A model generated the notes under the pieces. That model saw only the letters and a program-made list of their open reading frames with translations, had not been told where the DNA came from and did not search any database. A program made the translations under genes and the position numbers. From an uncultured Bacteroidia bacterium (GTDB lineage: Bacteria; Bacteroidota; Bacteroidia; Bacteroidales; UBA932), in the NCBI GenBank assembly GCA_902784965.1, contig CACZWU010000001.1, positions 59,444-123,443 of the forward strand: a DNA stretch of 64,000 nucleotides, given 5' to 3'. Below, one piece after another: positions 23,717-63,087 of this stretch (the stretch's first letter is position 1; every line of letters starts with the position of its first letter).

Positions 23717-24607
23717 ATGATGAAAGAATATTGCTATACCGTAGCCGGACACTGTTTCAGCGTACATCCCGCAAACGGCATCGACCTGACGGGGCCGCTG
23801 GCGCATTATGCGCCCTTTGCGACCGATCCCGTCCAGGCGCCTGCCGAACCGGAACGGGCGTTTTGCCTGAACGTCGTCTCGCAAGATGCCTTGCCCGAAC
23901 CGGCGGGCATGGTTGAAGAGTTCAACCAGGACGACGACGGTTCGCAGATCCGGCTGTGCCGGACGCCCGACGGCTGTTCGTGGTTCGCTTTCAGCCTCTT
24001 CGGTGAATTGTCGGGCACGATGCTCGCCGAGACGGATTTCAGGTCGGCGACGCTGGCACTCCATACGCAGGACGACTTCGCCCTGAACAATGCACTGATG
24101 GTGATGTACGCCATGCGCACCGCCTCGCTGGGGACGGCGCTTTTCCACGCGGCCGTGATTGGCTGCCAGGGGCGGGGATACCTGTTCCTGGGCAAGAGCG
24201 GTACGGGCAAGAGCACGCATGCCCGCCTGTGGCTCAAGTATATCCCTGGGTCCGAGCTGGTCAACGACGACAACCCGGTGGTCCGCGTCTTCGCGGACGG
24301 AACGGCCCGCGTGTATGGCTCTCCCTGGAGCGGGAAAACCCCCTGCTACCGGAATATGGAGCTGCCGCTCGGCGGTTTTGTCCAGCTGGCGCAGGCCCCG
24401 TACAACGCCATCCGGCGTCTGAAAGGCATTTCGGCCTATGCTGCGCTGGTGCCGAGCATCTCGGGCAAGCGCTGGGACCGCCAGATGGCCGACGGCCTGC
24501 ACGCCACAGAAGATGCGCTGGCCACCCATGTCCCCGTATGGCATTTGGATTGCTTACCCGATGAAGCGGCGGCACGTCTGTGCGCCGGTCAGATCATGCG
24601 CGTATGA
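23717..24607 (+). CDS. HPr-kinase-like ATPase
   Basis: A 296-residue protein. The first about 140 residues are a variable beta-rich region. A P-loop follows at residues 159-167 (GKSGTGKST), then LVNDDNPVVRV and YGSPWSGKTPC, the pattern of the C-terminal kinase domain of HPr kinase/phosphorylase. Members of this wider family in lasso-peptide clusters phosphorylate a serine of the peptide; others have no known target. The start could also be the Met 3 bases later. It is first in a four-gene operon joined by ATGA overlaps. The context (peptidase, PqqD, exporter) suggests a peptide substrate; no HPr-binding region is recognised. Confidence 0.8.
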   Translation: MMKEYCYTVAGHCFSVHPANGIDLTGPLAHYAPFATDPVQAPAEPERAFCLNVVSQDALPEPAGMVEEFNQDDDGSQIRLCRTPDGCSWFAFSLFGELSGTMLAETDFRSATLALHTQDDFALNNALMVMYAMRTASLGTALFHAAVIGCQGRGYLFLGKSGTGKSTHARLWLKYIPGSELVNDDNPVVRVFADGTARVYGSPWSGKTPCYRNMELPLGGFVQLAQAPYNAIRRLKGISAYAALVPSISGKRWDRQMADGLHATEDALATHVPVWHLDCLPDEAAARLCAGQIMRV

Positions 24608-25068
24608 AAGCGACGGCCGTGACCGACGAACTGATTATCGGTGATGCCGTTTCCCTGGTCAATGAGGGAATGGCGGTGACGCTGCTGGTGAAAGGACGCA
24701 GCATGCTGCCCTTTATCCTGGGCGGTCATGACAGCGTGGTGCTGACCAAGCCGGTCAACATCTCAGTGGGCGACGTGGTGCTCGCACGGATCGACGGGCG
24801 GCGTTACGTGCTGCACCGGGTAGTGGAAGTTTCCCCCGACCGGATTGTGCTGATGGGCGACGGGAACATCCGCGGACAGGAGGTCTGCCGTCCCGAGGAC
24901 ATCCTGGCCCGGACCGACGAAGTGGTCGGCGAAGACGGCCGCCACCGCCGGCTCGACACGCCGAAGCAGCGCCGGAGAGCCCGCATCTGGCGCTCCCTGC
25001 TGCCGGTCAGGCGTTGGATCCTGGCGGTTTACAAACGGACTGTGATACGTAATATCGACATACAATGA
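24604..25068 (+). CDS. S24/S26 family peptidase, S26B (Ser/His) type
   Basis: A 154-residue protein. The catalytic Ser33 lies in VKGRSMLPFI, the signal-peptidase box B. Instead of the bacterial Lys, the second catalytic residue appears to be His71 in RYVLHRVVEV, as in SipW and ER-type signal peptidases. VLMGDGNI follows as the box E-like motif. The N-terminus lacks a clear membrane anchor, although residues 130-147 are moderately hydrophobic. It may cleave a leader peptide for the ABC exporter encoded two genes downstream. It overlaps both neighbours by 4 bases. Confidence 0.82.
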   Translation: MKATAVTDELIIGDAVSLVNEGMAVTLLVKGRSMLPFILGGHDSVVLTKPVNISVGDVVLARIDGRRYVLHRVVEVSPDRIVLMGDGNIRGQEVCRPEDILARTDEVVGEDGRHRRLDTPKQRRRARIWRSLLPVRRWILAVYKRTVIRNIDIQ

Positions 25069-25337
25069 AACGGAAAGAAGGTTTTGTACTGCGCACTGTG
25101 TGCGGTGAGAAGGTGATCGTGGGCGAAGGCCTCGGTGCCATCGATTTCGGCAAACTGGTGAGCCTCAACGACACGGCCGCCTGGATCTGGGAAAAGGCCG
25201 GCGAATTGGGAGATTTCAATGCCGATGCGCTGGCAAAGGCCATGACCGAAGTCTACGACGTGAATTATGAGATTGCGCAAGCCGATGTGGAAACGCTGCT
25301 CAAGCAGTGGAAAGAACTGGGCATCATAGAGGAATGA
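25065..25337 (+). CDS. PqqD-like protein (peptide-recognition chaperone)
   Basis: A 90-residue protein with the PqqD fold pattern: a beta-rich N-terminal half and a helix after LVSLNDTAAWIWEKAGELG (the conserved LN-x-(S/T)-A-x-x-(I/L)-W motif), then two more helices ending QWKELGIIEE. In ribosomally made peptide systems such RRE domains bind the leader peptide and deliver it to modifying enzymes. Here the partners would be the kinase-like protein, the S26B peptidase and the exporter of the same operon. A second PqqD protein is at 62815. Confidence 0.88.
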   Translation: MKRKEGFVLRTVCGEKVIVGEGLGAIDFGKLVSLNDTAAWIWEKAGELGDFNADALAKAMTEVYDVNYEIAQADVETLLKQWKELGIIEE

Positions 25338-26959
25338 AATACTTCCGGTGGATATGGCAGTCGATGCAGGGGATTCGCTGGAATACCCTGTGGCGCATCC
25401 TGATCGGCATCGCGCAGGCCGGAATGGGCCTGTTGATGGTGTGGCTCAGTCGCCGCTTCATCGACCAGACCATCCGCACCGGCACCACCCGCGACATCGT
25501 GGTGATGGTCATCCTGCTGGTGGTACTGATGCTGGGTGGCGTAGTGCTACGGCAGCTCTATTACTACATGTCCACCCTGGCCAACACCCGGCAGACCAAT
25601 TCCATCCGCCTCAAGGCATTCAGCCGGCTTTTCACGCGTCAGCTCTATGCGGAACGCGACATGCACTCGGGCGACGTGGCTTCCCGCCTGTCGAAAGACA
25701 TCGACGTGGTGGGCGAGGCGTCGACCTCGCTGCTTCCTCGGGCTGTGGTGACGGCCGTCCAGCTGCTGGGAGCTTTCCTGATGCTGCATTCGATGGACAA
25801 CTACCTGGCCTGGGCCCTGCTGGTATTCACGCCCCTGATCATTGTCTTCGCCAAATTGATTTCCCGTCCGCTCCGGCAGATGACGCTCGACATCCGGCAG
25901 GATGAGAGCCGCATTCAGATGCAGGTGCAGGAGGGCATGGAGCACAATGCCACCCTCCGTTCGCTAGGCAGCGAAGAGTGGATGACGCAGCGGCTCGACG
26001 CGGCGCAGGAAGGTTTGATGGGACGGGTAAAACGCCGTACCCGCTTTACCGTGATGACCCGCATCCTGATGGCCTCATGCTTCGGTCTGGGTTATCTGAT
26101 GGCCTTTGTCTGGGGCGGCCTCCAACTACGCACCGGTGCCATCACCTTCGGTGTGATGACGGCTTTCCTGCAGCTGGTGAGCCAGATCCAGAATCCAATC
26201 CTCACGCTGCTCAACATGGTTCCGCAGCTCATCCACACCACGGCCAGCATCGACCGGCTGGAAGAGGTCCTGGCCGACCACCCGGAAGAGCGGGGACAAT
26301 CGGCTGAACCCGTGTCGAAAGGAGTGGCCGGTGTCCGGGTTCAGGATCTGCACTTCCAGTATGCTACGGGAGACCGGGCTGTCTTCAGCGGGTTCTCCCA
26401 CGATTTCCGTCCGGGCAGCAAGACGGCGCTGATGGGTCCCACCGGTGTTGGGAAAACTACGCTGTTCCGCCTGATGCTGGCCCTGATCAGGCCCGACAGC
26501 GGGACGCTGACGCTCTACGACGGAACGATGGCCCGGGAGGTGTCTCCCGACACCCGCCCCGACTTCGTGTTCGTCCCGCAGGGCAATACGCTGATGAGCG
26601 GTTCCGTCCGTTTCAACCTGCTGTTGGCGCATCCTTCTGCCACGGACGACGAATTGCGTGAAGTATTGCATACCGCCGCCGCCGATTTCGTCTTCGACCT
26701 GCCGGCCGGACTCGACACGGAACTGGGCGAGCGCGGCATCGGCCTGAGCGAAGGACAGGCCCAGCGCATCGCCATCGCCCGCGGCCTGCTGCGGCCCGGC
26801 AGCTTCCTGCTGCTCGACGAAATCAGCGCTTCGCTCGACGAAGCGACCGAGCGCGAACTTTTCTCCCGCCTTTTCCAGAATTATCCGGACCGGACGATGA
26901 TCTTCATCACCCACCGTCCCGGCGTCGCCAGCCTCTGCGACGACACCATCCGGCTCTGA
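25334..26959 (+). CDS. ABC transporter, fused permease and ATPase (exporter type)
   Basis: A 541-residue half-transporter. About six transmembrane helices occupy residues 15-300. The nucleotide-binding domain has Walker A at residues 368-376 (GPTGVGKTT), a Q-loop, a signature with one change (LSEGQAQR instead of LSGGQ), Walker B (FLLLDEISASLD) and the switch His (FITHR). No C39 peptidase domain is fused, which fits with a separate peptidase gene in the operon. The ATG at 25334 overlaps the PqqD stop. It would act as a homodimer in the inner membrane; the exported substrate is unknown. Confidence 0.9.
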   Translation: MKYFRWIWQSMQGIRWNTLWRILIGIAQAGMGLLMVWLSRRFIDQTIRTGTTRDIVVMVILLVVLMLGGVVLRQLYYYMSTLANTRQTNSIRLKAFSRLFTRQLYAERDMHSGDVASRLSKDIDVVGEASTSLLPRAVVTAVQLLGAFLMLHSMDNYLAWALLVFTPLIIVFAKLISRPLRQMTLDIRQDESRIQMQVQEGMEHNATLRSLGSEEWMTQRLDAAQEGLMGRVKRRTRFTVMTRILMASCFGLGYLMAFVWGGLQLRTGAITFGVMTAFLQLVSQIQNPILTLLNMVPQLIHTTASIDRLEEVLADHPEERGQSAEPVSKGVAGVRVQDLHFQYATGDRAVFSGFSHDFRPGSKTALMGPTGVGKTTLFRLMLALIRPDSGTLTLYDGTMAREVSPDTRPDFVFVPQGNTLMSGSVRFNLLLAHPSATDDELREVLHTAAADFVFDLPAGLDTELGERGIGLSEGQAQRIAIARGLLRPGSFLLLDEISASLDEATERELFSRLFQNYPDRTMIFITHRPGVASLCDDTIRL

Positions 26960-42977: not shown

Positions 42978-44294
42978 TTGAAAAGAAGACTGATCATACT
43001 CATAGCACTGGAATTCTGTGCGGCAGGCCTTGCCGCACAGAATTTTGCTGTTGCCCCGGCGCTGCGGGCCCATGTCGAGGCCCTTTGCGACGAGGAGCTG
43101 GAAGGTCGTCGTGCCGGCAGCGACGGTGAGCGCGCGGCGGCCCGTTACCTCTACGATGCGCTGGAGGAGGCCGGCGTGCTGATGCTCACCGATACGCTGG
43201 GACAGGACTTTACCATCACCGGTCCCGACGGGGACATCCATTCCCGGAACGTCGTGGGCATCGTCCAGGGCAGCGATCCGCTGCTGCGCGATGAATACAT
43301 CGTGGTGGGCGCCCGCTACGACCATCTGGGCACCCACGTGCTGACCGTCGACGGCGAACCGGTGGTCCAGCTCTTTCCGGGGGCTGACTGCAACGCCTCG
43401 GGCGTTGCCATGCTGATCGAGCTGGCACGGTTGGTGGCTGAGTACCAAGGCCTTTTCCGCCGCTCCATCCTTTTCGTCGGCTTTGGCGCCGGAGAGCAGG
43501 GGTCGGCCGGCTCCTGGTATTTTGTCAACCGGGCCTTTGAACAGTCCGGAAAGATCAAGGCGATGCTCGACCTCGACTGCCTGGGCCGGGGCGGGAGCGA
43601 CCATCCGCTGACGGTGTTCTCCCAGCTCGCCCGCCGGGATTTCGACTACCTGCTCGACCAGACCGCCCGCCAGCCCGTGGTCCGGCTGCCCGAAATCGCG
43701 ACCGGGACGCTCCGCCCCTCCGATTACCTGCCTTTCTACGAAAAGAAGATTCCGGTGTTCTTCTTTTCCACGGGACCCGCCCGCGAACACCGCACCATCA
43801 AGGACACGCCGCGGCTCATCGATTATGCGGCGATGGAGATCAACGGCAACTATCTCTATCATTTCCTGATGGTGGTGGCCGACGTCGACGAGGTCTCCTC
43901 GGTCGACGCTGACCCCGAGAAACGGGCTGTGCGTGCCGATCGGGTCTATGCCGCCTCCGACTGCGACGTCCGTCCCCAGTTCTTCCATTCCAACGAACGC
44001 CACTTCCTCCAGAGCTGGGTGTACAAATACCTCAAGTATCCCTCCTACGCCATCGAACACAACATCCAGGGACAGGTGCTGGTGAGCTTCATCATCGAGA
44101 AAGACGGTACCGTGACCAACGTCCAGGTGGAAGACGGGGTCGACGAACTGCTCGACGACGAGGCCGTGCGCGTGGTGTCGGTTTCACCGAAATGGATTCC
44201 GGGCCAGATCAAGGGCAGCAAGGTCCGTACGAAAATGGTCATTCCCGTGGAATTCCGTCTGTCGTCGAAGTGGGACATGGGTTTGAAAAAATAA
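42978..44294 (+). CDS. M28-like peptidase (probably inactive) fused to TonB C-terminal domain
   Basis: A 438-residue protein starting at a TTG directly after the gcvT stop; the first residues form a signal peptide (KRRLIILIALEFCAAGLAAQ). The M28 zinc aminopeptidase fold is clear. Metal ligands His116 (YDHLG), Asp137 (GADCNASG), Glu173 and Asp200 are present. The catalytic-base Glu of the AEE motif is Gly172 (GAGEQG), and the last His ligand of the SDH motif is Tyr250 (PSDYLPF). Residues about 345-430 form a TonB C-terminal domain (QGQVLVSFIIEKDGTV). This may be a binding pseudoenzyme rather than a peptidase. Confidence 0.82.
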   Translation: MKRRLIILIALEFCAAGLAAQNFAVAPALRAHVEALCDEELEGRRAGSDGERAAARYLYDALEEAGVLMLTDTLGQDFTITGPDGDIHSRNVVGIVQGSDPLLRDEYIVVGARYDHLGTHVLTVDGEPVVQLFPGADCNASGVAMLIELARLVAEYQGLFRRSILFVGFGAGEQGSAGSWYFVNRAFEQSGKIKAMLDLDCLGRGGSDHPLTVFSQLARRDFDYLLDQTARQPVVRLPEIATGTLRPSDYLPFYEKKIPVFFFSTGPAREHRTIKDTPRLIDYAAMEINGNYLYHFLMVVADVDEVSSVDADPEKRAVRADRVYAASDCDVRPQFFHSNERHFLQSWVYKYLKYPSYAIEHNIQGQVLVSFIIEKDGTVTNVQVEDGVDELLDDEAVRVVSVSPKWIPGQIKGSKVRTKMVIPVEFRLSSKWDMGLKK

Positions 44295-57804: not shown

Positions 57805-59133
57805 ATGGACAAGAGATTCTCATTGAAAGGCTCCCTGCTGCAGTACATTCTGTTGTCCTGCATCGGTACCTTTTTCTCCATCCTCCTGCTGCGATGGATC
57901 TCCGTGCCGGAGTACGGATTCACGCGGCACATGCTCATCGCCATGGCGTCTGCCGCCGTCTTCACACTCATCGGCCTGCTGATCTCCGGCAGTTCCCGCC
58001 ATATCCGGGAAGACGCCTCTTTCTGGAATTTCCGCCGCATCGCCGCCACGGTGATGATCAAGGAAGTGGGCATGCTGGCCGTGATGCTGAGTGGCTGGAT
58101 CGGCCACCATTCTGCCGTTCATATCCTGCTGGGTATTTTCTCTGACATCGTCTTCTCCATCGCGCTGATCATCTATCCTTCCATCATCGCCGCCCGCATC
58201 CGGAAAGAGAGCAAGGATATGCATTCCATCAGCGACCGCATCAATGCGCTGGTGTATGGTGATGGCGAGGAGGCGGCCGACATGGCGGAGAGCGCTGAGC
58301 TGTCGGGCCGTTACGAGGTACTGGGCCTGATTTCCCGCGACCCGGACATGAACGGCAAGATCCTGCGGGAATATGTCATCTACTATGTGGGCAGCGAACA
58401 GGATCTGGAGGCACTCCAGTGGCGGTTGGGCGGCATCGACTGCATCCTCTTCCCCAAAGGGGGACAGTCCGACAAGTCTGAAGCCAATATGTGGCGGGGC
58501 CCCGTGTCATCGGAAAACATCCCCCAGCCCAAGGATTCGATGAGCCTGACGGGCAAATTCATCAAGCGGGCTTTCGACATCACGCTGTCCGGCCTGCTGC
58601 TGATTGTCTTTTCGCCCTTGTTCCTTATCTGCGCGCTGGCCGTGCTGATCGACGACGGCCGGCCGGTCATCTACAAGCAGGAACGCATCGGTCGCGGTGG
58701 CAAACCCTTCTACATCTACAAGTTCCGCTCCATGCGGAAAGATGCCGAAGCGGCCGGTCCGGTACTCTATTCGGGCATCACCGATCCCCGTCTCACCCGT
58801 TCCGGCAGCTTCATGCGCCAGCATCACCTCGATGAGCTTCCGCAGCTTTGGAACGTCTTCCGCGGCGACATGTCGTTCATCGGCTATCGCCCCGAACGCC
58901 AGTTCTATATCGACCGCATTATGGCCGACAACCCGCGCTATCGTTTCCTCTATCAGATCCGTCCCGGGGTCACCAGCTATGCGACCCTCTACAACGGTTA
59001 TACCGACACCAAGGAAAAGATGCTTACCCGGCTGGACATGGACCTCTACTACCTGCGCAACCACTCCGTGTGGTTCGATCTGCGTATCCTGGGTCTGACT
59101 TTCCTGAGTATCGTTGGGGGCAAGAAGTTTTAG
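57805..59133 (+). CDS. Undecaprenyl-phosphate sugar transferase (WcaJ/WbaP-like)
   Basis: A 442-residue protein. The N-terminal part has several transmembrane segments. The C-terminal bacterial sugar transferase domain starts FIKRAFDITLSGLLL, with RIGRGGKPFYIYKFRSMRKDAE, LDELPQLWNVFRGDMS and RPGVTSYATLYNG. It would load the first sugar-phosphate onto undecaprenyl phosphate to begin a surface polysaccharide repeat unit. UpxY follows 3 bases later. Confidence 0.9.
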   Translation: MDKRFSLKGSLLQYILLSCIGTFFSILLLRWISVPEYGFTRHMLIAMASAAVFTLIGLLISGSSRHIREDASFWNFRRIAATVMIKEVGMLAVMLSGWIGHHSAVHILLGIFSDIVFSIALIIYPSIIAARIRKESKDMHSISDRINALVYGDGEEAADMAESAELSGRYEVLGLISRDPDMNGKILREYVIYYVGSEQDLEALQWRLGGIDCILFPKGGQSDKSEANMWRGPVSSENIPQPKDSMSLTGKFIKRAFDITLSGLLLIVFSPLFLICALAVLIDDGRPVIYKQERIGRGGKPFYIYKFRSMRKDAEAAGPVLYSGITDPRLTRSGSFMRQHHLDELPQLWNVFRGDMSFIGYRPERQFYIDRIMADNPRYRFLYQIRPGVTSYATLYNGYTDTKEKMLTRLDMDLYYLRNHSVWFDLRILGLTFLSIVGGKKF

Positions 59134-59136
59134 ACG

Positions 59137-59691
59137 ATGGAAAGCGTGCTCATATCCGACAAGACCTGCTGGTTCGCCGCCCGCACCCGCTGCGGAGCGG
59201 AACTGGGCGTGCGCGACCGGCTCGACCGTTTTGGAACGGAGCACTTCCTTCCTGTCGAACTGCGCCGCCACACCCGCTCCCGCGCTTCGTATGAGCATCC
59301 GCTGATTCCCGGCCTGATCTTTTTGCATACCACCAAGAAGCAGGCCTGCGCCCTGACCAACGAGATGGGCCTGCCGGTGCGCTACCTCATCGACCCGGCC
59401 ACGCATACCCTGCTCGTGGTCCCTGACAAGCAGCTCGACGATTTCCGCCGGGTCCTCGACCTTTCGGCCGAGAAGGGTGGGCTGATGGACTGCCCGCTGG
59501 CTCTGGGCGACTTCGTGCGGGTCATCAAGGGCCCGCTCCGGGGCGTTGAGGGCCGTGTTCTGGAACTGCGCGGGCACATCTACGTAGTAGTGGAACTGCT
59601 GGGCTGTTTCTTCGCCCGCGCCACGGTGCGGCGGGCCTGGCTTGAAAAAATAGATGCACCACGAAATGATTTTGGAACAATTCATGCTTAA
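59137..59691 (+). CDS. UpxY family transcription antiterminator (NusG-like)
   Basis: A 184-residue protein with an N-terminal NGN domain (WFAARTRCGAELGVRDRL) and a C-terminal KOW motif (GDFVRVIKGPLRGVEGRVLE). In Bacteroides, UpxY proteins allow RNA polymerase to read through long capsular polysaccharide operons. Its place at the start of a polysaccharide region supports this. Its last codons are A/T-rich. Confidence 0.9.
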   Translation: MESVLISDKTCWFAARTRCGAELGVRDRLDRFGTEHFLPVELRRHTRSRASYEHPLIPGLIFLHTTKKQACALTNEMGLPVRYLIDPATHTLLVVPDKQLDDFRRVLDLSAEKGGLMDCPLALGDFVRVIKGPLRGVEGRVLELRGHIYVVVELLGCFFARATVRRAWLEKIDAPRNDFGTIHA

Positions 59692-59730: not shown

Positions 59731-59898
59731 ATGGAACAGAAAAAATACGAAGCACCTGCCATCCTTGAAGATGTCCATCTCGAGGTGGCCTGTGGTATTC
59801 TCGCACAGTCAGTAGTAGAAGAAGACCAGGAAGTGGAATCCGTGGGCCAGGAAGTCGAAACCCACACGATGACCGGTTACGAGCATAGCTGGCAATAG
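59731..59898 (+). CDS. Small 55-residue peptide gene
   Basis: The ATG at 59731 opens a 55-codon frame: MEQKKYEAPAILEDVHLEVA, then CGILAQS, an acidic segment (EEDQEVESVGQEVE), ending YEHSWQ. The opening resembles short Bacteroidota peptides of the form MxxKxYxxPxIxxVxLxxxxxxL that are often found next to fimbrillin-like genes. Function unknown. It could be a small structural or secreted peptide, or a precursor peptide. It lies 16 bases upstream of the fimbrillin-like lipoprotein, probably in one transcript. Confidence 0.6.
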   Translation: MEQKKYEAPAILEDVHLEVACGILAQSVVEEDQEVESVGQEVETHTMTGYEHSWQ

Positions 59899-59914: not shown

Positions 59915-61732
59915 ATGAAACAGCTTTACCATCCAGTCGCTTTCGTACTGGCCGCACTCGTTTGCCTGTTGATGTCTGTATCCGGATGCGCCCTTTTCGA
60001 AGAGACTACGGGCGATCAGGTCATCCGTTTCACGGCCGCTTCCTCGCTCGATACGAAAGTCTATTATGGCAATGAGCAGAACGGCAAGATCCAGTTGATC
60101 TGGGAGACGGGCGACCAAATCCGTATTGTCAGTGACCGCGCCCGTACTTCCAGCGGTTCCAGTTCACACGATTACCGCCTCCGTCACGACCGGGAAGAGG
60201 GCTCCCACAGCTATGCCAAATTCGATCTCAATGATGCCGGAGAAAACGGACTGCGTTGGGAAGAGTCGGGCGACTATGAGTTCTATGCCACCTATCCGGC
60301 CGTATCCGTATCGTCTGACGGCTCCTTCTCGGCCGATGTCTCGGATGATCGATACCTGATGGTCGCCCATACCACGGCAGCGTACAATACCCAGCGGAAG
60401 GTGTTCCTCAGTTTCTATCCTGCCTTTACGGCCTTTGAAGTGACCATCACCGCCGACGATTCTTCCGTTTCGGTCGACGACAGCGAACTCTATTCCCTGG
60501 TGACGCCGATGGCCGGCAAGTTCACCGCCAAGATTGGCAACGCCGGGATTTATGACTACAATGTCACCTCTCCCGAGCGTTCTGCCTATCCGGCCTCCTC
60601 GCTGACGAGCGGCAGCCGCAGCAGCAAAACCTTCATCTTTTTCTGCCTGCCCCAGGATCTTCGCAACGTGGTTCTCTACTGTACCTTCACCAAAGACGGA
60701 CAGACGCGGACCAAGTCGCTGGCCTTGTCGTCGGGTGGCAGTTCCATCGTTTTCTCGGCCTGTAAGTATCATCGTCTCAACCTGACGCTCGACAGCTCGG
60801 GTGGCGACGTGGAGATCGAGTTCTCCGACATGTCGATGGGCGGTTGCCAGATGCTGCTGTCCCTGCTCAAGCAGAACGCCGGGTCTTTGCAGCAATATGC
60901 GCAGAACCGGGGTGTTACGCTCGACCAGAACCTGGCCGTCAACCTGTTCAACTATTATGTGAACAACAATGTCGGTCAGGTGGATGCCCGTGATGCGTTC
61001 AAAGGGACCGGCAGCAACAGCTTTACCTCCGACCAACTTCCCGTCATCAAGGACTTCCTCGGAACACTGACCAACTATACGCATCAGAACTCCCTCTGGG
61101 CCAGCATCGAGGCCACTGACTTCGTCTTCGTCCCCAACCTGGAGACCATCAATCAGTTGGAGGTCGATCCGCAGAAGGTCAACAACTACGGAATGTCGAT
61201 CGACGTAAGCGGTTTGCAGAAGCTCAAATCCATCTCCCTGTACAAGTGTACCCATCTGAGCGTCAGCGATTGCCCGCAACTGACATCGGTTCAGATGATG
61301 AACATCGACAACAATTACTCCTGTGATTTCAGTCTGAGCAACTGCCCGAAGGTGACCAGTTTCTCACAAGATTGGAACGGCCAGCGCTGCTCGTTCAGTT
61401 TCACCAACATGTCGGGCCTCCAGACGATCAGCCTGAAGAATGGCGCTTCCGTGACGGTCGACAACTGCAGTGCCTTGACCTCTCTGGGCATGGAACAGGC
61501 CAGCAACCTGGAGTCCATCAGCATTTCGAATGCGCCCAATTTCACCGGCGGTGAATTCAAGACGGTCGAGAAAACGGTCTCGGTGAGTGTGAGCAATTGC
61601 AGTGCGAACGTATCGGGAGCGACGCTGATCCTGCGGGGCAACGGGAATGCCACCAATGCCGGCAAGACAAACAGCGACAACTTGACCGTCAAGTTTATCG
61701 ACAACGGCGGAAACGAGAAGACCCGTTTCTAG
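59915..61732 (+). CDS. Fimbrillin-like lipoprotein with leucine-rich-like C-terminus
   Basis: A 605-residue protein. A lipoprotein signal (LAALVCLLMSVSGC) is followed by a fimbrillin-type region with the usual IRFTAAS opening, and then about 20 kDa of repeats of about 21-24 residues from residue about 420 (LKSISLYKCTHLSVSDCPQL; LTSVQ; LQTISLKNGASVTVDNCSAL; LESISISNAP). These look like a leucine-rich-type solenoid. The fimbrillin part is probably surface-exposed. The start is the ATG at 59915; the TTG two codons upstream is less likely. Its 3' end overlaps the convergent nucleotidyltransferase gene by 4 bases. Confidence 0.8.
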   Translation: MKQLYHPVAFVLAALVCLLMSVSGCALFEETTGDQVIRFTAASSLDTKVYYGNEQNGKIQLIWETGDQIRIVSDRARTSSGSSSHDYRLRHDREEGSHSYAKFDLNDAGENGLRWEESGDYEFYATYPAVSVSSDGSFSADVSDDRYLMVAHTTAAYNTQRKVFLSFYPAFTAFEVTITADDSSVSVDDSELYSLVTPMAGKFTAKIGNAGIYDYNVTSPERSAYPASSLTSGSRSSKTFIFFCLPQDLRNVVLYCTFTKDGQTRTKSLALSSGGSSIVFSACKYHRLNLTLDSSGGDVEIEFSDMSMGGCQMLLSLLKQNAGSLQQYAQNRGVTLDQNLAVNLFNYYVNNNVGQVDARDAFKGTGSNSFTSDQLPVIKDFLGTLTNYTHQNSLWASIEATDFVFVPNLETINQLEVDPQKVNNYGMSIDVSGLQKLKSISLYKCTHLSVSDCPQLTSVQMMNIDNNYSCDFSLSNCPKVTSFSQDWNGQRCSFSFTNMSGLQTISLKNGASVTVDNCSALTSLGMEQASNLESISISNAPNFTGGEFKTVEKTVSVSVSNCSANVSGATLILRGNGNATNAGKTNSDNLTVKFIDNGGNEKTRF

Positions 61733-62748
61733 CGAAAGAGATTCCCGTGAGCCAGTTCCCGGAGCGTGGCCCAGGTTTCTCTGGGGGCGTACCGGAGCGA
61801 GAAAGGCAGCCTGGCGATGAAGGAAGTGGCCGTAGAGAGCTTCCTGCGCCAGCCGGCTTTTTTTACTGCCAGTTTCCGTGATGTCCGTGAAGTACCGAAA
61901 TTGCCTCCCCGTCGCACATTTTGGAGCAGGTTCCTGTAGCTGCAGGGCTTGAAACTGTCCAGACAGTATTTCGGGTTGAGCCCCAGTTCTCCGACCAGCA
62001 TGGCACAAAGCATCTGGTGCCAGTGTAGGATGCCGGCTTTCCGCAGGGCTTCCTCCAATTCCTGTTTGTCGTAGCGGCCTTCCAGCATGGCCAGGGCACG
62101 GGCCAGGTCGCAGAACTGCTTCAGGCCGATTCCCACGCCCAAGGCGTGCTTGAGGATGTGCGCGCTGTAGAGTACGATTTCGCCGCATGCAGAAGGGACG
62201 GCAGGCAATCGTTCGTCGGGCAGGTGCAGGTCGAAATAGCGCGGATGGATTTCTATGCAAATGCCTTTCCGGTTGAAAACCGTGCTGCCGTCCGGTGCCC
62301 GTTCTGCCTTGTCGACCAGGGCACTGGCTTCCTCGATCTTTCCGTCGGGGAAGTAGATGTCGATGTCGCCGCATTGGCGGAGCAGGGGCACCTCATAGTG
62401 CCGGGCGGCCTGGCTTCCCTTGAGGACCAGCATCCTGAGGCCATGCTGCTCGAAGAAAGCGCGGAGCTCCCGCTCCACGATGTTCATCTGCAGGTTCAGC
62501 TGCTCGATCTCGTTGGCTTCGGCCAGCAGCTGCATCCGGACGGGGGCGGGTGGAAGCTGATCGGCCGGAAGATGGGTGATGCCGCGCAACAGGAGGCCGG
62601 TCACGGCCTGCCGCCGTGCCAGCTCCAGCATCCGCTCCCACCGGCCCTGGCTGGCCAGTTTGGAAAGGATGACCGGCTGTTCCCACAGACCTGCCCGGAG
62701 CAGGCTGAGGAACAGATTCCAATCCCCGTCTGTTATGGATTGCCGCAT
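61729..62748 (-). CDS. Nucleotidyltransferase family protein (NTP_transf_5 type)
   Basis: A 339-residue protein with a nucleotidyltransferase-like core (MLVLKGSQAARHYEVPLLR then CGDIDIYF, the GxDxD-type metal motif, at about residues 110-135) and a helical C-terminal half. This uncharacterised family is found in Bacteroidota polysaccharide loci and in some lasso-peptide clusters. The start is the Met at 62748; a longer frame to 62775 crosses a TATCTTTA promoter-like box. It is divergent from the PqqD gene. Confidence 0.82.
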   Translation of the reverse strand: MRQSITDGDWNLFLSLLRAGLWEQPVILSKLASQGRWERMLELARRQAVTGLLLRGITHLPADQLPPAPVRMQLLAEANEIEQLNLQMNIVERELRAFFEQHGLRMLVLKGSQAARHYEVPLLRQCGDIDIYFPDGKIEEASALVDKAERAPDGSTVFNRKGICIEIHPRYFDLHLPDERLPAVPSACGEIVLYSAHILKHALGVGIGLKQFCDLARALAMLEGRYDKQELEEALRKAGILHWHQMLCAMLVGELGLNPKYCLDSFKPCSYRNLLQNVRRGGNFGTSRTSRKLAVKKAGWRRKLSTATSFIARLPFSLRYAPRETWATLRELAHGNLFR

Positions 62749-62814: not shown

Positions 62815-63087
62815 ATGCGAATTCACCCTGGCTACCATCTTCGCGAGTTGGGCGACGATCATCTGGTCATCGGCAAAGACGCCGCTGCCAAGCAAAATGA
62901 GCGGCGGGTCGTACGGCTCAATGCATCGGCCGCTTTTTTGTGGCGCGCCGTTGAAGGAAAAGAGTTTGATGTGCCGATGCTGGCTCGACAGCTTCAGGAG
63001 GAATACGGATTGGATGCCGCCAGGGCCGCAGCCGATGCGGCGGCCATCGTCTCTGCCTGGACGGACGCCGGACTGGTCGACGCATAG
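62815..63087 (+). CDS. Second PqqD-like protein
   Basis: A 90-residue protein with the PqqD pattern: beta-rich start (MRIHPGYHLRELGDDHLVIG), then VRLNASAAFLWRAVEGKEFD (the LN-x-(S/T)-A-x-x-(L)-W motif) and C-terminal helices. The same length as the PqqD at 25065. The start at 62815 is chosen because the frame upstream lies in the promoter. It is divergent from the nucleotidyltransferase. A leader-peptide-binding role is inferred from the fold only; its peptide, if any, is unknown. Confidence 0.85.
   Translation: MRIHPGYHLRELGDDHLVIGKDAAAKQNERRVVRLNASAAFLWRAVEGKEFDVPMLARQLQEEYGLDAARAAADAAAIVSAWTDAGLVDA

Follow-up and report, generated by a model that had tools for sequence, protein, structure and literature searches.

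A Bacteroidales gene cassette likely to mature and export peptides by a pathway of the linear polyphosphorylated peptide type

A DNA stretch of 64,000 nucleotides from an uncultured Bacteroidia bacterium (GCA_902784965.1, contig CACZWU010000001.1; hereafter the window) contains an operon of four genes (23717-26959, + strand) encoding an HprK-like kinase, a Ser/His peptidase, a PqqD-type protein, and an ATP-binding cassette (ABC) exporter. What do these proteins act on? The initial annotation, made from the sequence, described them as a compact peptide phosphorylation, cleavage and export system of unknown substrate. Our analysis indicates that the cassette is the maturation and export machinery of a linear polyphosphorylated peptide (LPP)-type pathway for ribosomally synthesized and post-translationally modified peptides (RiPPs), working in trans; we put the probability of this reading at roughly 0.8.

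The cassette and the LPP pathway

The four genes are joined by three ATGA overlaps, read from the sequence at 24604, 25065, and 25334, as had been described. We compared gene order across genomes, as the initial annotation had proposed, using 81 loci, one from the window and the others from named contigs (the best 80 of 151). The order kinase–peptidase–PqqD–ABC exporter was kept in 63 of them, and the gene set is therefore not due to chance; among the remaining 18, three reached the contig end and 15 were partial, rearranged, or had no detected exporter. ATGA overlap is not universal: where a kinase was called (71 loci), a gap of −4 was counted 30 times at the junction following the kinase, 26 times at the next, and 9 times at the third. 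The genes flanking the cassette differed from lineage to lineage. The kinase was present in 32 of 40 genomes of the window's genus (E ≤ 0.001), 35 of 295 of the order (E ≤ 1e-10), and 5 of 395 of the phylum (E ≤ 1e-25), two of the last belonging to the same class but another order. Rumen genomes of the Prevotella type and related Bacteroidales genomes commonly carry the cassette; one cultured rumen isolate that has it is Xylanibacter ruminicola Ga6B6 (locus L107).

The kinase is HprK-like by its predicted fold, since its structure model (mean predicted local distance difference test score, pLDDT, 92.2) matched PEPCK and HprK/P in the PDB, while sequence models stayed under cut-off (Pfam Hpr_kinase_C, E 0.0037, a weak match). 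The motifs GxSGTGKSTH and NDDNPVV were invariant in 34 aligned sequences. The peptidase matched Peptidase_S24 (E 2.4e-6, over cut-off), and its model (pLDDT 88.9) gave LexA and UmuD as best matches and the signal peptidase SpsB as a weaker one; Ser33 and His71, previously pointed out as features of an S26B-type peptidase, were both invariant in 31 aligned sequences, the window among them. The PqqD-type protein exceeded the cut-off of its domain model (E 1.5e-13), and its residues N35, Y64, and D74 were invariant in 32 aligned sequences. In the exporter, ABC_membrane (2e-28) and ABC_tran (6.9e-22) were both over cut-off, and the best NCBIfam model, MsbA_rel, was under its cut-off; the Pfam scan listed no C39 domain, consistent with the earlier description of an exporter without a fused C39 peptidase.

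A similar gene set, lppAKBSDN of Paenibacillus alginolyticus (Bacillota), was published in May 2026 as the LPP pathway (PMC13381572). According to that report, the set comprises an HprK-like kinase, a discrete RiPP recognition element (RRE), a signal-peptidase-like leader peptidase, an MsbA-like exporter, and a nucleotidyltransferase (NTP-transferase), and the functions of LppK, LppS, and LppB are experimentally established. LppK attaches multiple phosphates to Ser3 of the core; LppB, which binds YxxP, assists LppS (catalytic residues S29, H68, and D93) in cutting after T-1. LppD is the export pump, and LppN was inactive in the host used. The precursors follow the pattern YxxPxVLxHQxIxFETxxS, with AQSNWK as the LppA core. 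LPPs are encoded in capsular loci, and their biological role is stated in the report as unknown. The Discussion of the report restricts the pathway to Bacillota, its section 6 calls the peptidase cluster 'predominantly' Bacillota, and 'Bacteroid' is absent from its main text (PMC13381572). Among the papers listed by our literature searches, none reported this system from Bacteroidota.

Three further observations concern the distribution and surroundings of the cassette. Genomes G347 and G700, of the same class but a different order, have kinase homologues, G347 in two copies. Two contigs of metagenome-assembled genomes labelled Fibrobacter carry the same cassette (L084:3210-4028 and L091:5359-6222; kinase 57-58% identical), which may reflect either transfer or mis-binning. 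Proteins of cluster c14 (ca. 480 amino acids) are encoded upstream of the kinase in seven Prevotella-type loci (L047, L048, L049, L051, L064, L075, and L088), in tandem in four of them.

Precursor peptides and their lipoprotein neighbours

The initial annotation had also suggested looking for co-occurring small open reading frames (ORFs). A scan for short ORFs of the YxxP type found peptides near several cassettes, such as those directly before PqqD–kinase in L098 and before NTP-transferase–kinase in L108, plus one at 59731-59898 in the window. The last was the sole match of the YxxP pattern among free and called ORFs of the window, where no leader-type precursor adjoined the cassette; an ORF at 43072, the sole match of a looser leader pattern, was rejected as unrelated. 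The substrate formerly given as unknown can now be narrowed to a candidate family of YxxP-leader peptides.

Profile A1, built from ten peptides picked by eye, had matches in 31 of the 40 genus genomes (E ≤ 1); these genus matches were counted as listed, and some of them fall within long reading frames or contain an internal stop. At the same limit, it matched 1-22 times in each of 12 chosen genomes labelled Prevotellaceae, Bacteroidaceae, or Bacteroidales, which came from cassette loci and seven of which had supplied A1 rows. Profile A2, a 50-row leader profile, found six leaders in the window's own genome and matches in 11 of 295 order genomes (E ≤ 0.01). From 94 unique peptides, 81 had E ≤ 1e-3, and 79 of these, with YxxP or FxxP in the first 24 residues, were used for residue counts (in the two dropped peptides the motif lies further in); Tyr and Pro are thus fixed by selection of the rows. 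The motif is followed by alternating hydrophobic residues and then [IL][LC]xxS. Ser occupied Y+19/+20 in 74/79 leaders, compared with 2-15/79 in ten control intervals of three positions. Selection of the A2 rows had used a pattern requiring S or G near this position; we therefore repeated the count on A1 matches chosen without a Ser requirement and obtained 47/49. Beyond Y+22 the peptides are acidic (median net charge −3); one of the 79 has Cys there, and 23 end in Trp. Ten close pairs were compared for selection; after removal of two with dS 0 and two that repeat other pairs, the six distinct ones gave dN/dS 0.15-0.20, and the precursor frames therefore look translated and constrained. Routine annotation may overlook ORFs this short.

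Leaders and kinase co-occur. Among the 295 order genomes, the kinase (E ≤ 1e-30) was found in 17, a leader (E ≤ 0.01) in 11, and both in 8 (Fisher p 2.9e-9; 3.6e-8 with the own genome removed); at a kinase limit of 1e-10 (35 genomes), p was 2.3e-6. Within the genus, 28 of the 32 genomes with the kinase had leader matches (E ≤ 1), compared with 3 of the 8 without it (p 0.008). A leader lay in the same stretch as cassette genes in 6 of 35 kinase stretches from genus and order (L209-L243), namely L209, L210, L211, L226, L228, and L231. Since the other 29 hold no detected leader, precursors are mostly unlinked to the cassette in the main lineage.

The genes downstream of the precursors were then compared. 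Among the 94 peptides, 84 had a downstream frame to judge, nine had none, and one lay near an end. A lipobox protein was encoded downstream of 53/84 peptides vs. 95/1275 called genes; lipoboxes were called with a simple pattern after a start had been chosen, and the calls include misses and false ones. In the 68 downstream proteins scanned with Pfam (E ≤ 0.001), Mfa_like_1 was found in six, GNAT acetyltransferases in three, and an NTP-transferase in one. Because Pfam alone found few fimbrillin-like neighbours, we used a profile iterated from the Mfa-like protein of the window, which matched 40 of the 77 downstream proteins long enough for it vs. 12 of 1394 background genes; at least six of these 12 were window or own-genome genes beside leaders. 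Precursors often directly precede lipoprotein genes, many of them fimbrillin-like, and the lipoprotein is likely the surface partner.

Similar genes were also seen downstream of YEMPEV or YFDPEM leaders at L063:7300-8205, L166:1501-2630, and L075:11385-12292. By resemblance, these appear to be the three GNAT matches and possibly encode a further tailoring enzyme.

The precursor locus of the window

The precursor of the window lies in a second locus, 33-35 kb downstream of the cassette (Table 1). It matched A1 with E 1.2e-15, being itself a row of that profile, and a single-sequence search (E ≤ 0.1) found relatives in 10 of the 39 other genus genomes. Its Ser is at Y+21, whereas the family mostly has Y+19/+20, and alignment with LppA predicts cleavage between GIL and AQS. 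The start of the downstream lipoprotein gene was picked by eye within the reading frame.

Table 1 Features of the cassette and of the second locus in the window.
Feature	Coordinates	Strand	Evidence
Candidate HprK-like peptide kinase (LppK-like)	23717..24607	+	296 aa (amino acids); weak Pfam/NCBIfam HprK matches, model fold, invariant motifs
Candidate LexA/signal-peptidase-fold Ser-His leader peptidase (LppS-like)	24604..25068	+	154 aa; Peptidase_S24, invariant Ser33/His71, model fold
PqqD-type RRE (LppB-like)	25065..25337	+	90 aa; PqqD domain, invariant N35/Y64/D74
MsbA-like ABC exporter without C39 peptidase (LppD-like)	25334..26959	+	541 aa; ABC_membrane, ABC_tran
Exopolysaccharide-type initiating sugar transferase, recurrent precursor neighbour	57805..59133	+	Bac_transf 2.6e-59; synteny
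UpxY-family antiterminator, recurrent precursor neighbour	59137..59691	+	NF033644 E 8.4e-33, over cut-off; synteny
Candidate LPP-type precursor peptide, 55 aa	59731..59898	+	leader profile A1, single-sequence search, synteny
Predicted leader (Y6xxP9 ... GIL) of window precursor	59731-59802	+	alignment with LppA
Predicted core of window precursor, first residues AQS	59803-59895	+	alignment with LppA
Fimbrillin-like lipoprotein directly downstream of precursor	59915..61732	+	Mfa_like_1 E 1.4e-12, over cut-off
NTP_transf_5 nucleotidyltransferase (LppN-like)	61729..62748	-	PF14907 E 2.7e-30, over cut-off
Second PqqD-type RRE	62815..63087	+	PqqD E 1.6e-12

Nine stretches around relatives of the window precursor were used to assess synteny. 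The arrangement sugar transferase–UpxY–precursor–Mfa-like–NTP-transferase was kept in four (L253, L254, L256, and L257) and in part in L255 and L258; the short stretches L259 and L260 showed the peptide alone and L261 the Mfa-like gene alone. Besides the window, a PqqD gene at the precursor locus was seen in L226 only. Among 12 P0001-like cores compared by eye, including those of the window and L226, GQ was kept in 11 and [FY]xHxW in 8. An NTP-transferase match was found in 26/40 genus genomes, and a homologue lay directly upstream of the kinase in 3/81 loci. One genome from another family, G229, carries the genes for kinase, peptidase, ABC protein, NTP-transferase, PqqD, sugar transferase, and UpxY in one contiguous array (L226) with a leader peptide, which lies ca. 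9 kb after the kinase. Because both parts are contiguous there, the two loci of the window look like halves of one cluster. The word 'compact' in the initial annotation therefore fits the cassette genes but not the NTP-transferase, the second PqqD, and the precursor.

Proposed pathway and its alternatives

Five components have counterparts in both the Bacteroidales system and the LPP pathway (PMC13381572): a kinase of HprK-like fold, a discrete RRE, an MsbA-like exporter, an NTP-transferase, and, as a candidate, a signal-peptidase-like Ser/His leader peptidase. N35/Y64/D74 of the RRE correspond to the YxxP-binding N33/Y60/D70 of LppB (numbering mapped by hand from the printed alignment). The YxxP leader, the Ser at similar spacing (Y+18 in LPP), the linkage to polysaccharide genes, and a window core predicted to begin with AQS like that of LppA are further common points. 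In contrast, the host phylum differs, the precursor and NTP-transferase of the window are unlinked to the cassette, the latter presumably acting in trans, and Bacteroidales genomes have many dispersed precursors each, paired with lipoproteins that are often fimbrillin-like. With precursors that are dispersed, numerous, and lipoprotein-paired, the system would thus represent a distinct variant of the LPP-type pathway.

What was observed is conservation of the genes, invariance of catalytic and binding residues, a family of precursors that co-occurs with the kinase, gene pairing, and purifying selection; we infer phosphorylation, cleavage, and export of the peptides (by homology to LPP) and the partner role of the lipoproteins. 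The PqqD protein would bind the YxxP β-strand leader of the short precursors, the kinase would phosphorylate the conserved Ser, and the peptidase would cut the leader off in the cytoplasm between [L/C] and xxS. Alignment of TxxS of LPP with [LC]xxS places the predicted cut just before xxS and the predicted phosphorylation on the third core residue. Export to the periplasm would fall to the ABC protein, its cargo being an acidic, linear phosphopeptide whose phosphate may be decorated by the NTP-transferase. The fimbrillin-like or other lipoprotein encoded after the precursor is the likely surface partner. The peptide phosphorylation, cleavage and export system first proposed thus gains support from the conserved gene set, the lack of detected HPr in the genus genomes, and the apparent gene-for-gene LPP match. 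The remark made at that time that no classic maturation enzyme is present has been overtaken by the LPP report, in which enzymes of exactly this kind make a linear phosphopeptide (PMC13381572).

Were the protein a genuine HPr kinase serving carbon control, with incidental neighbours, this would suit the structural similarity of its model to HprK/P. However, its score against TIGR00679 was 16.5 bits (cut-off 240), the four-gene order is fixed, and PTS (phosphotransferase system)-HPr was found in 0/40 genus genomes by a search that was positive in 7/14 control genomes; HPr as a substrate, an alternative raised by the initial annotation, was rejected on this result, and such a role is extremely improbable. 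The NCBIfam HPr-rel-A system (TIGR04353) likewise has a PqqD-type chaperone and is named after an HprK-related kinase, but the window PqqD scored 15.6 bits where 35 are required. With paeninodin-type phosphorylated lasso peptides, the system has in common the PqqD-type RRE, the exporter, and the kinase and NTP-transferase typical of those clusters (PMC13381572), and the closest PDB sequence to the PqqD protein is lasso TfuB1. A lasso pathway with cyclase and B2 protease elsewhere in the genome is nevertheless very unlikely: a signal-peptidase-like enzyme takes the place of B2, Transglut_core3 (B2) was over cut-off in one of 40 genus genomes (G031, kinase-negative), and the own genome (78% complete) gave 20.1 bits vs. 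a cut-off of 26. B2 is thus supported neither there nor in kinase-bearing genus genomes, and the lasso pathway was rejected. No macrolactam cyclase was present in the cassette, to which the domain scan was confined, no genome-wide cyclase search having been made. On contig 162 of G031, which lacks the kinase, the B2-like match lies ca. 1 kb from an NTP_transf_5 match, possibly marking a true lasso cluster.

Two further alternatives concern the short ORFs. They could be regulatory upstream ORFs of lipoprotein operons, the cassette having another substrate, as their position directly before lipoprotein genes in 53/84 cases would allow; amino-acid conservation with fixed spacing, purifying selection, co-occurrence with the kinase, linkage to cassette genes, and a core that is in part conserved within the P0001-like subfamily all speak against this, and we consider it improbable. 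The peptide–lipoprotein gene pairing would also fit fimbrillin-like lipoproteins, not peptides, as substrates, but these have their own lipobox signal, and the RRE residues equal the YxxP-binding residues of LppB (PMC13381572), which leaves this option with very little probability.

Several points weigh against maturation of YxxP-leader peptides by the cassette. Bacteroidales leaders do not share the HQxIxFET part of LPP leaders (PMC13381572), the third catalytic residue, D93 in LppS, has only candidate counterparts (the invariant D86 and E93), and the RRE matched TfuB1 (E 2.3e-4) better than LppB (E 0.42). Because of the last point, the system could either form a common clade with LPP or be a convergent relative. 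The peptides that seeded the leader profile lay mostly close to kinases and included that of the window, and the 50 rows of A2 were selected by the pattern requiring S or G near the site. In the co-occurrence statistics, the genomes are related and so not independent, and the kinase limit of 1e-30 was chosen after the list had been seen. At E ≤ 0.01, 9 of the 17 kinase-strong order genomes had no leader; kinase-positive genomes G001, G024, G029, and G033 had no leader match, and leaders without a detected kinase occurred in G136, G290, and G344, to which the genus genomes G009, G014, and G031 add three such cases at E ≤ 1. The 29 kinase stretches without a detected leader belong here as well.

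If LPP-type maturation holds, an LPP-related system is now placed in a second phylum, where genomes have many precursors and a gene partner recurs, and a candidate substrate family is supplied for the cassette of rumen Prevotella-type and related Bacteroidales genomes. A wider picture, which we offer tentatively and consider rather less than evenly probable, is that one shared cassette matures many different acidic phosphopeptides, each of which would dock onto, or polymerise together with, a co-encoded lipoprotein of its own, often fimbrillin-like; this would amount to a repertoire of phosphopeptide-modified pili or adhesins and a widespread Bacteroidales surface system. Because there are many precursors and a recurrent fimbrillin-like lipoprotein partner, the role of LPP-type peptides becomes testable, and the question is opened whether the peptide binds the neighbouring fimbrillin-like lipoprotein.

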